Part shown: piece by piece, positions 4,397-20,428 of the stretch
Layout of the letters: each line of letters begins with the position of its first letter
How positions within the stretch are numbered: position 1 is the first letter of the stretch
Virus record (IMG/VR): IMGVR_UViG_3300023184_000006
Location: 1-35,791 of that record
Direction: 5' to 3' (one strand)
Origin: a virus
Length of the DNA stretch: 35,791 nt
The notes under the pieces: generated by a model
Told to the model about the DNA's origin: nothing
The model's input: only the letters and a program-made list of their open reading frames with translations
Databases searched by the model: none
Program-made: the position numbers and the translations under genes

Positions 4397-4648
4397 TTAA
4401 CGCGGGGGCATACGATTCTGCATAGCCCGCATCTGCTGCAACCGCATCATGTCGGCGTCGCTCATCTGGCCCTGACCCTGCATAGGCTGCGGCATCTGCT
4501 GCTGCATCTGCATCGGGGGCTGCGGCGTAACAATATCACCGCCGCCATTGTATTCACCGCTGGGGGGCAAACCACCAGCCGCGCCCGCCTGACGGGCAAG
4601 CCGCATACGCTGCATGATTTCGGCTAGTTTGCGTGGGTCTATGGGCAT
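4397..4648 (-). CDS. Small Met/Gln/Pro-rich hypothetical protein
   Basis: The 83-aa product has a helical, basic N-terminus (IMQRMRLARQAG) followed by a low-complexity tail of Met, Gln and Pro (for example MQMQQQMPQPMQGQGQM). The ATG has AAGGAAA upstream at about 8 nt. Its place between terminase and portal and its composition echo the Met/Gln-rich C-terminus of the portal. It may therefore be a small virion or assembly protein, but no family is recognised. Confidence 0.6.
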   Translation of the reverse strand: MPIDPRKLAEIMQRMRLARQAGAAGGLPPSGEYNGGGDIVTPQPPMQMQQQMPQPMQGQGQMSDADMMRLQQMRAMQNRMPPR

Positions 4649-4659
4649 GATGTATTTCC

Positions 4660-4947
4660 TTACTTGTTACGATTAGAAATTGCTGCGGCCTTGGACTTTG
4701 CGTCTGCCTTGCTGGACGCGCCCCAAGCCTTTAGGGCCAGAGCCAAACGAGTCGGCTTGCCATTCTTTTCCATCGGACCCGGCATACCACCCATCCGAGC
4801 AAGGAATGACGCGCGGCGTGGATTGTCGCCGCCCTTGACCGGGGGCTTTAGCGTGCCGCCCGTTTCAGCCTTGTAGGACGCGCGGCCCTTGGCGTTCAAG
4901 CCGCCTTTGGGGTTCTTGCCTTCGCTGCGCGTCCATGCTGCGGTCAT
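4660..4947 (-). CDS. Conserved small basic phage protein (DUF6321-like)
   Basis: The 95-aa, Lys/Arg/Gly-rich product begins MTAAWTRSEGKNPKGGLNAK and contains SYKAETGGTLKPPVKGG and RRASFLARMGGMPGP. I recognise these as a widespread conserved family in podovirus head modules, which I recall as DUF6321. The start ATG overlaps the TGA of the preceding gene (ATGA). The function is unknown; its position next to terminase and portal suggests a packaging or head role. Confidence 0.7.
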   Translation of the reverse strand: MTAAWTRSEGKNPKGGLNAKGRASYKAETGGTLKPPVKGGDNPRRASFLARMGGMPGPMEKNGKPTRLALALKAWGASSKADAKSKAAAISNRNK

Positions 4948-17042: not shown

Positions 17043-17303
17043 ATGACCGACATGATCGAACGGGTGGCCGTGGCAATCAACCAAGCCATGCTTTTGCATG
17101 ACGACTATGATCCTGATCTGCTTGCCCGCGCCGCCATTGCCGCCATGCGTGACTGCACTCCGGCCATGCTGGACGCTGGATCAGGCGCGCACCCGGCTGG
17201 CGGGTATGTTCGAGGTACGACACTGAACGACATCATCGAGTGCGAGTGGTGGGCTATGATCGACGCCGCGCTGGAAGAAACCAAATCAACAACCAAAGGA
17301 TAA
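17043..17303 (+). CDS. MIERVA/MIDAAL-family phage protein (copy 1)
   Basis: The protein begins MTDMIERVAVAINQAMLLHD, contains ARAAIAAMRD and ends in WWAMIDAALEE. This block order defines a small phage family of unknown function that is often multi-copy. A second full copy is at 18504-18746 and a C-terminal remnant at 17801-17830. Confidence 0.75.
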   Translation: MTDMIERVAVAINQAMLLHDDYDPDLLARAAIAAMRDCTPAMLDAGSGAHPAGGYVRGTTLNDIIECEWWAMIDAALEETKSTTKG

Positions 17304-17307
17304 TGAC

Positions 17308-17565
17308 ATGAAAATTTTAGTCGAACAAAAGGACGGCGAAGGTTTTGAGGCATTGCTAGGCCAGCGCATCACGCTGTTCTGCATGAACTATATCTACACC
17401 GGCAAGCTGGTCGGCGTGAATGTGACTTGCGTTAAGCTGTCTGACCCGGCCATTGTTTACGAAACGGGCGCATTTGGTGACAAGGCGTGGAAAGACGCGC
17501 AGGCGCTGCCCAACGATCTGTACATTTCGACCGCCGCCATTGAGTCGTTTGGTGTTGTGAAGTAA
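17308..17565 (+). CDS. Conserved small phage protein, 85 aa
   Basis: The protein has LLGQRITLFCMNYIYTGKLV, VKLSDPAIVYETGAF and LYISTAAIESFG. I recognise this set as a conserved beta-rich phage family of unknown function. Its TAA overlaps the ATG of the repeat-encoded ORF that follows (TAATG). Confidence 0.75.
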   Translation: MKILVEQKDGEGFEALLGQRITLFCMNYIYTGKLVGVNVTCVKLSDPAIVYETGAFGDKAWKDAQALPNDLYISTAAIESFGVVK

Positions 17566-17804
17566 TGCGCGGATTAAAACAAAAATACAGGTTGGGGTCG
17601 TGGTCGGGGTCGGGTTCGGCGCCGTGGTCGGGATCATGGTCTGGGTCGTGGTCTGGGTCGGAATCTAGGTCGTGGTCGGGGTCGTGGTCAGGGTCGTTGT
17701 CTGGGTCGGGGTCATGGTTGCAATCGTGGTCGGGTTCTTGGTCGTGGTCTGGGCCGTGGTCTGGGTCTGGGTCGTGGTCGTGTTCGGGGTCGGTGGCGCT
17801 ATGA
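17565..17804 (+). CDS. Ser/Gly/Trp-repeat ORF, 79 aa (may or may not be a real protein)
   Basis: After a short start (MRGLKQKYRLG) nearly the whole product is SWSGSGSW-type repeat encoded by hexanucleotides. The ATG overlaps the preceding stop as TAATG. The TGA overlaps an ATG of a nine-codon remnant that itself overlaps the next gene, so ribosome coupling could pass through it. Repeat-driven frames are open by chance: the opposite strand is also open, giving Asp/Pro/His repeats. Protein status is therefore uncertain. Confidence 0.4.
   Translation: MRGLKQKYRLGSWSGSGSAPWSGSWSGSWSGSESRSWSGSWSGSLSGSGSWLQSWSGSWSWSGPWSGSGSWSCSGSVAL
17594..17795 (+). repeat. Degenerate hexanucleotide tandem repeat, about 34 units
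   Basis: Roughly 200 bp consist of variants of TGGTCG, GGGTCG and TGGTCT. The period is six, so all three plus frames stay regular. Such tracts are rare in compact phage genomes and could vary in length by slippage. Confidence 0.9.
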
Positions 17805-17830
17805 TCGACGCCGCGAAGGAAACAAAATGA
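17801..17830 (+). pseudogene. Remnant of a MIDAAL-family 3' end
   Basis: Nine codons (MIDAAKETK) and a TGA match the C-terminal end of the family at 17256 and 18717, including the 14 identical bases ATGATCGACGCCGC. The stop overlaps the next start as ATGA, as at the intact copy at 18743. It probably remains from a copy whose upstream part was replaced by the repeat tract. Confidence 0.6.
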
Positions 17831-18507
17831 CATTACAGATTGTCACGCAGCGGTTCACATGGCCGTCTGAATACGTCAACCGGCTGTATCATAACATCAG
17901 GCGGCTAACGACGCTGGAGTTCGACTTTGTGTGCTTTACCGACGCGCCAGAAGGGCTGGACCCGGCTATCAAGGTCCGCCCGCTGCCGTACAAGCTCAAG
18001 CCTGGCTGGGAGAATAGCTACCCGTTTGACTCGTACCACTGGTCGCTTGGGCTGCTGGAGCGTATGCCTATGTTCAAGAAGGGCATGTTCCCCAAGGATG
18101 ACATGATTGCGTTTATCGACTTGGACACGGTATTCACGGGCAAGAGCCTAGACCCGATCCTGTCCTATAAGGGCGACTTTGCTATTCTGCGCGATTTCTA
18201 CCGCCCGGACGGCCTGCAATTCAGCTTCGCAATGTGGCGCGTCGATGAACATGTTTACGACATCTACGACTTCTGGCAGGATGACGGTGCGCCGCTGGAC
18301 AGGTCCGATCAGCAGCGGATCGAGGATACGACATACAAGCCTGACATCTTCCAGAACATGTTCCCCGGCCAGTTCGTTAGCTGGAAGGCCAATGACTGTC
18401 AGGGCGGTATCCCGCAGGAAGCCAGCGTGGTGATATTCCACGGGGTGCCGAAGCCCCATGACATTGTAGACGGGCCATTACCGGCCATGTGGAAGGGCGA
18501 GGAATGA
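17827..18507 (+). CDS. Glycosyltransferase-like protein with DXD motif
   Basis: The 226-aa protein has FIDLDTVFTG, with a DLD motif at 98-100 typical of metal-dependent GT-A glycosyltransferases. It also has a conserved first block (VTQRFTWPSEYVNRLYHNI, DFVCFTDAPEG), Asp-Gln at 161-162 and a terminal VVIFHGVPKPHD. It probably transfers sugar from a nucleotide donor. The acceptor (phage DNA, a virion protein or a host surface polysaccharide) cannot be told. It is coupled to its neighbours by ATGA overlaps. Confidence 0.75.
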   Translation: MTLQIVTQRFTWPSEYVNRLYHNIRRLTTLEFDFVCFTDAPEGLDPAIKVRPLPYKLKPGWENSYPFDSYHWSLGLLERMPMFKKGMFPKDDMIAFIDLDTVFTGKSLDPILSYKGDFAILRDFYRPDGLQFSFAMWRVDEHVYDIYDFWQDDGAPLDRSDQQRIEDTTYKPDIFQNMFPGQFVSWKANDCQGGIPQEASVVIFHGVPKPHDIVDGPLPAMWKGEE

Positions 18508-19916: not shown

Positions 19917-20428
19917 TTGCGGGCGAATGTCTTGGCCTCTAGCTCGACTTCGCTGACCCGCTGACCCCAGCCCTTTGCAAACGTAGTCCACGTTGGCAGG
20001 GATTTGAGAAAGTCAAGCCTTTTCTGGCTGTAGTCTTCAATCATCCCCGTAAGGTCTGCCCGCTGTAGAGCCGCCAGAGTATGCTTGCCCAGCACCCCAT
20101 CGACCTTGGTGTAAAGGACATACTGGAGCAGCTTAATCGCCCTGCCGGGGCTTGAATTAACCGCGCAGTCGAACATGCAGTAGTCCAGCCCATAGGGCAG
20201 GGCATCGCCTTGGATAGCGTCCCAATAGCGGGCTTTATAGACCGGCTGGACGGCCTCCGGCGTCAGGGCGCGCATATCCGCCTCAGACGCATCCTTGCCC
20301 GTGTGGGCGTCCCAGACGGCCTTGGTAACGCCCAGGTTGGTCATGCCACCTGGGTCTTTGGGATGGTTCACAAAGCCGCCTTCGTGCCGGAGCAGGAGGC
20401 GCAAGGCGGGGTCGAATGTAGGGGTCAT
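19907..20428 (-). CDS. Endolysin, GH108-type muramidase
   Basis: The 173-aa protein has RHEGGFVNHPKDPGGMTNLG (catalytic Glu16 in the EGG motif) and GVTKAVWDAH, then ARYWDAI and a C-terminal part typical of the PG-binding_3 domain. It should cut peptidoglycan at lysis. The ATG overlaps the stop of a small membrane protein, in a lysis cassette with a 3TM-type holin. It is the last gene of the late block. Confidence 0.92.
   Translation of the reverse strand: MTPTFDPALRLLLRHEGGFVNHPKDPGGMTNLGVTKAVWDAHTGKDASEADMRALTPEAVQPVYKARYWDAIQGDALPYGLDYCMFDCAVNSSPGRAIKLLQYVLYTKVDGVLGKHTLAALQRADLTGMIEDYSQKRLDFLKSLPTWTTFAKGWGQRVSEVELEAKTFARNQE

Follow-up and report, generated by a model that had tools for sequence, protein, structure and literature searches.

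A coupled two-gene unit of diverse uncultivated phages encodes a predicted Sm-like protein and a hexamer-repeat X-Ser protein

The uncultivated virus IMGVR_UViG_3300023184_000006 of IMG/VR carries a small open reading frame built largely of hexamer repeats, which raises the question of what such an ORF is and what it could do for a phage. Positions refer to the 35,791-nucleotide stretch of this record that was analysed as a whole, hereafter the window, and all features lie on the plus strand. The original prediction of about 34 hexamers in a Ser/Gly/Trp-repeat ORF proved exact: 34 hexamers with the consensus NGGTCN, each encoding (W/G/other)-Ser, lie in register at 17595-17798. TRF reported this array at 17590-17792 (period 12, 16.9 copies, score 154) as by far the strongest of the window, and the best 192-nt stretch contained 123 period-6 self-matches, far beyond chance, as none of 100 dinucleotide-preserving shuffles exceeded 77. 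The array fills gene 2 (17565-17804), which encodes a 79-aa (X-Ser)n protein reading MRGLKQKYRLGSWSGSGSAPWSGSWSG...SGSVAL (also given for this ORF as MRGLKQKYRLGSWSGSGSAPWSGS...SGSVAL) and beginning with a conserved basic leader, MRGLKQKYR (17565-17591). Gene 2 is preceded by gene 1 (17308-17565, 85 aa), whose stop codon overlaps the gene 2 start in TAATG. At the 3' end (ctATGA), the gene 2 stop overlaps the ATG of a nine-codon ORF, MIDAAKETK (17801-17830), and the TGA of this ORF overlaps the ATG at 17827 of a glycosyltransferase gene (phrog_1962, 17827-18507), a neighbour outside the module. The arrangement of overlapping start and stop codons predicted at these three junctions, including the second ATGA, was thereby confirmed.

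Searches of Pfam, PHROGs and NCBIfam found no family match for gene 1 or gene 2, and a sequence-profile search with gene 1 reached no PDB chain at a significant E-value. An AF2 model of gene 1 based on a 100-sequence alignment (pLDDT 94.2, pTM 0.83) consists of a short N-terminal helix followed by a five-stranded, strongly bent beta barrel. All 50 of the PDB matches listed for this model were Sm, LSm or archaeal SmAP proteins or complexes containing them (prob 1.00, TMq 0.57-0.69), including Lsm1-7, archaeal SmAP and spliceosomal Sm, the best being 4m75_K (E 9.6e-4, prob 1.00, TMq 0.66). The gene 1 family of the window (F1) has a diverged counterpart, F2, characterized by the motif LEDAAWIADTGRF...NEVEPFPDG. 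Profile comparison identified the two as homologous (hhalign prob 96.9, E 1.4e-10), and an independent model of F2 (pLDDT 95.8) has the same predicted fold, with PDB matches listed that were Sm/LSm throughout except for one NatC entry. The Sm1 motif, G-x-L-x-x-x-D-x-x-hydrophobic-N-x-L, is partly matched; G32 is invariant in the gene 1 family and L34 and L44 are nearly so, the D position is a conserved N38, and the canonical Asn position is V42 in the window protein. The canonical Sm2 signature is missing from the family, which has I78-E79-S80 (IESF) rather than IRG or the KH of Hfq. We conclude that gene 1 is confidently predicted to encode a phage relative of the RNA-handling Sm/LSm proteins that had so far gone unrecognised. 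Taken alone, this Sm-like half would count as a distant new branch within a superfamily that is already known.

Remote structural matches to the Sm-like model in BFVD included DUF6948 proteins of uncultured Caudovirales phages and an 'RNA binding protein' of a Gordonia phage. Since several uncharacterised phage proteins match the model structurally, Sm-like folds may be common in phages.

A DNA-pattern search of IMG/VR for six consecutive GGTCNN units returned at least 120 stretches. Among the 120 arrays listed, an F1 relative lay upstream in 37 (some of these matches are weak) and an F2 relative in 30; no gene 1 was recognised by a simple motif test in 33, and 20 were too close to an edge. 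Several of the 33 keep leaders of the usual kind; others are simple WSWS or SRSR microsatellites. We also searched with gene 1 only, which avoids bias towards repeats. This search yielded 90 loci, comprising 80 kept from 145 IMG/VR relatives, nine in GTDB contigs and one in an INPHARED record, and pairing was counted in the 65 dereplicated loci having at least 100 nt downstream of gene 1. Gene 2 was present downstream in 64 of them, with L195 as the only exception. Its form was a long X-Ser ORF in 58 cases, a short one in two (L178, L238) and a non-repetitive ORF in four loci of Nitrospinaceae. Within the 58 long-array loci, gene 2 starts with ATG in 50 and overlaps gene 1 by 4 nt (ATGA/GTGA) in 20.

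No other neighbour family recurs in more than five of these 58 loci, once two larger antisense clusters, which are just gene 1 and the array read from the opposite strand, are set aside; hitchhiking within a single phage lineage therefore does not account for the pairing. Where flanking genes could be recognised, most serve replication and recombination, as do the window neighbours, which encode a Cas4-type exonuclease, Sak4, a primase-helicase and RuvC. INPHARED contained a single metagenomic phage record each for F1 and F2, a search of PLSDB gave no match to the gene 1 family, and the absence of F2 from 369 genomes of one bacterial class is an uninformative negative. These sequence comparisons lead us to conclude that a mobile, translationally coupled unit of two genes, of which the repeat ORF is the second, occurs across very diverse uncultivated phages. 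Six loci contain either two or more consecutive repeat ORFs (L007, L064, L090, L111, L150) or two Sm-like genes (L121), which suggests tandem duplication of the unit.

The nine-codon ORF downstream of gene 2 bears on how the unit reached this position. A full-length MIDAAL protein (MIERVA...AAIAAM...MIDAAL) is not encoded at 17801-17830, which holds the last nine codons only. The match of this remnant to both neighbouring MIDAAL genes stood up, and the 14 identical bases first noted became an exact 18-nt match with the intact copy at 17043-17303. The 18-nt sequence, GCTATGATCGACGCCGCG, occurs inside the intact gene at 17253-17270 and again at the remnant at 17798-17815, so that the two direct repeats flank the cassette. 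Locus L154 shares the Sm-like gene and the array with the window, together with a MIDAALECSTK tail next to them, and no other part of its 5.3-kb stretch aligns. This junction in otherwise non-aligning sequence indicates that the MIDAA tail either travelled with the cassette or was acquired by it. L142 has gene 1 and the array in common with the window, followed by a different gene, while L124, the closest exonuclease relative, is without the whole block. Taken together, the L154 and L142 comparisons indicate that a MIDAAL 3' end either travelled along with the cassette or served as the site of its recombination, and it is plausible that the 18-nt direct repeats were the exchange point. Among the few DNA matches between the queried region and isolated phages, 20306-20387 resembles a lysozyme gene of Sphingomonas phage Eidolon (79% over 82 nt), a weak hint at a sphingomonad-like host.

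We next consider array length, for which near-identical relatives are available. With flanks essentially identical (at least 99.9% over the aligned stretches), the arrays differ by 6 nt in L169/L170 and L218/L225, by 48 nt in L158/L159 and L182/L183, and by 84 nt in L192/L193, although these lengths may be distorted by short-read assembly; the remaining contig pairs compared have arrays of equal length. The expectation that tract length varies was thus borne out, over a range of 6 to 84 nt. Every difference observed is a multiple of 6 nt. As all of them keep the reading frame, an ON/OFF frameshift switch is excluded, and it is possible that changes in array length tune the size of the protein. 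Contigs end within 500 nt downstream of gene 1 at 18 of the 90 loci, compared to four that start within 500 nt upstream, the excess that is expected if arrays break assemblies. In the deposited phage record MW202825.1 (L150), where gene 1 is unannotated, a sequencing-adapter-like stretch, AGATCGGAAGAGCGTCGTGTAGGGAAAGAGTGT, lies at about positions 4628-4665 of that locus, right after the second repeat ORF and is an apparent assembly artefact at the array.

These results bear directly on the model first proposed for the locus, in which the repeat arose inside a third MIDAAL copy and serves as a length-variable switch for the glycosyltransferase. The genuine MIDAAL 3' remnant, the overlapping start and stop codons and the variable array length agree with it. 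However, the Sm-like plus repeat unit recurs in dozens of unrelated phages that have no MIDAAL gene, and in L154 the cassette is found, MIDAA tail included, in otherwise non-aligning sequence. The proposed switch fares no better, because a 6-nt unit cannot shift the frame and none of the other module loci yielded a homologue of the glycosyltransferase; the glycosyltransferase used as an IMG/VR query likewise found no relatives. The model is thus already contradicted, and we regard it as barely credible.

The gene 2 family shares a layout in which a basic leader, [K/R]-x-[K/R]-[Y/F/W]-R-S, is followed by 9-39 X-Ser dipeptides, with X being a near-random mix in which Gly makes up about 35%, Arg/Lys 30% and aromatic residues 28%. 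The window array is atypical in having few Arg residues, almost none of them in the repeat, and in being more degenerate. In 69 arrays the Ser codon is near-uniform within an array and different between arrays (TCT, TCG, TCA or AGC), whereas Trp is TGG and Arg is AGG or CGG. The Ser third base accordingly has an entropy of 0.19 within loci as against 1.78 between loci. AGC serves as the array Ser codon in six loci on six separate tips of the gene 1 tree, which is poorly resolved; the best tree implies 22 Ser-codon changes, of which well-supported branches force only one or two per group. GGG accounts for 549 of 583 Gly codons in the arrays (94%), compared to 65 of 511 in gene 1 (13%). Within loci, variation is concentrated at the first base of the X codon (1.54 bits), with at most 0.39 bits at the remaining positions. 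The proportions of aromatic, Gly and Arg/Lys residues are homogeneous over 57 arrays (chi2 113, df 112), and Gly and aromatic residues are never lost, L175 having Tyr in the place of Trp. In the RGLKQKY part of the leader, codon comparison of eight loci gave 117 synonymous and 17 nonsynonymous pairwise differences. Our reading of these patterns is that gain and loss of hexamers homogenises neutral synonymous sites and that selection at the protein level keeps the W/G/R mixture. The Arg codon tends to track the Ser codon at F1 loci, being CGG in most TCG/TCA arrays and AGG in most TCT/AGC arrays, with exceptions.

A different possibility is that the GGTC array acts as DNA or RNA, as a set of protein-binding sites, an origin or an RNA motif, and that the ORF is incidental. 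Such a role would fit the strong conservation of GGTC in the window array and the almost invariant GGG codon for Gly. At other loci, however, AGC replaces TCN with the protein unchanged, and the leader and the Nitrospinaceae copies described below are under purifying selection on protein. Frames +2, -0 and -2 contain 197, 147 and 159 stops, while the XS frame is open in 58 of 58 arrays, as it must be given that the ORFs were selected for it. This explanation is largely refuted, and we consider it highly improbable. Two specific candidates, GGTC as a DNA or RNA motif and the products of other frames, including a minus-strand Asp-His-Asp-Pro ORF, were rejected on the grounds that TCN-to-AGC switches keep only the XS protein constant.

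The bacterial copies of the unit provide evidence that does not involve repeats. Gene 1 occurs in six of 46 Nitrospinaceae genomes, with one copy on a 1.6-Mb contig, and the accompanying gene 2 is non-repetitive (L234, L235, L237, L239, L252, L253). The order ParA-like / HTH / gene 1 / gene 2 / Mrp-like / gyrA is kept in L235, L237, L239 and L252, and in part in L234 and L253. Gene 2 encodes 50 aa with a consensus of about MxRRNRFRxR..SASGxKSWAxSWSGPF..FSWSG..SWxG, starts within a conserved 4-nt ATGA/GTGA overlap with gene 1, and has an RNRFR leader similar to phage leaders such as KRNKFRS. The pN/pS values were 0.21-0.58 for gene 2, with a third-position excess, and 0.15-0.33 for gene 1. The Nitrospinaceae copy is the strongest evidence for translation and function of gene 2.

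As for the role of the pair, we give about even weight to a two-gene module consisting of an Sm-like RNA-binding protein and a low-complexity tail made in trans. The Sm-like protein would form an RNA-binding ring, and gene 2 would supply the tail, in which aromatic and Arg residues could act as 'stickers' and Gly/Ser as 'spacers'. Composition and the conserved pairing suggest that gene 2 would dock on gene 1 via its leader. The resulting multivalent RNA-protein assembly would handle phage or host transcripts early in infection, and changes in array length would adjust its multivalency, not turn a gene on or off. More tentatively, the unit may be an unnamed RNP module of very diverse phages in which an Sm-like ring and a W/R/G-Ser protein build an RNA condensate, with fast hexamer turnover at constant W:G:R, and which has been domesticated chromosomally in Nitrospinaceae.

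The main rival to this RNA-binding module is a toxin-antitoxin-like or membrane-active pair, in which a cationic Trp/Arg-rich gene 2 product would attack the cell or function at lysis and would be held in check by gene 1. Two small coupled genes, a mean net charge of +10 with abundant Trp in gene 2, and retention beside an HTH gene in Nitrospinaceae chromosomes would all suit such a pair. Ser at alternate positions and wide length variation would nevertheless be unusual for a toxin, the window repeat has almost no Arg, the phage copies lie among replication genes, and PADLOC-DB contains no model that matches gene 1 or gene 2. We therefore consider this rival unlikely. Still more doubtful is a virion or surface role, with gene 2 as a fibrous or adhesive decoration and gene 1 as a small-barrel structural adaptor; repeat proteins and small barrels do occur in virions, but the flanks consist mainly of replication and recombination genes, and bacterial chromosomes retain the pair next to gyrA and an Mrp-like ATPase.

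Returning to the module with a tail in trans, Sm/LSm proteins are central to RNA handling across all three domains of life, and two diverged phage families, F1 and F2, each come with a low-complexity partner of one kind. What is new is the pair as a unit, which we found in none of the family libraries or literature searched. No description of the module, or of a phage-encoded Sm/LSm family, emerged from our literature searches on phage Sm/LSm/Hfq proteins, phage dipeptide repeats, condensates and DUF6948. Although it is widely distributed among uncultivated viruses, the module has escaped annotation, and short-read assemblies apparently break at it. The arrays amount to a natural experiment, in which W, G and R are swapped by single changes at one codon position in dozens of loci; as overall composition stays constant under this exchange, the sequence grammar of a disordered protein becomes directly testable. 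A broad survey found aromatic residues and Arg to be under-represented in low-complexity regions of prokaryotes and phages (PMC6821194).

Several known systems resemble the module in part. Like simple sequence contingency loci it has length-variable short tandem repeats inside a gene, but in contrast to frameshift phase-variable genes its 6-nt unit, a multiple of 3, keeps the frame and gives no ON/OFF state. SR proteins and FUS-like domains are also low-complexity with Arg-Ser, Gly-Ser and aromatic residues, whereas gene 2 shows no homology to them and encodes a stand-alone short phage protein. Archaeal SmAPs (1m8v, 1h64, 1i81, 4xq3) are among the best structural matches listed, although the sequence profile of the gene 1 family does not reach them, and we know of no low-complexity partner gene for archaeal SmAP. 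Eukaryotic SmB, SmD1 and SmD3 share the predicted Sm fold and have Arg-Gly-rich tails comparable to the Arg/Gly low-complexity partner, but structural matches are at about 10-22% identity, there is no Sm2 IRG, and the phage-encoded tail is in trans, Ser-alternating and Trp-rich. To our knowledge, a split into an Sm protein and a separate tail has no precedent among Hfq or eukaryotic Sm proteins. As described in two papers (PMC6561178, PMC10590398), Hfq joins an Sm fold to a disordered C-terminal domain in a bacterial setting, a likeness to the predicted fold and low-complexity tail of the module. Unlike in Hfq, the tail is a separate gene of X-Ser dipeptides with Trp, Gly and Arg, sequence similarity is not detectable, and the Sm2 KH is missing. 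By the features tested the module belongs to neither group, and in working principle it would be comparable to the Hfq CTD or to the RG tails of Sm proteins.
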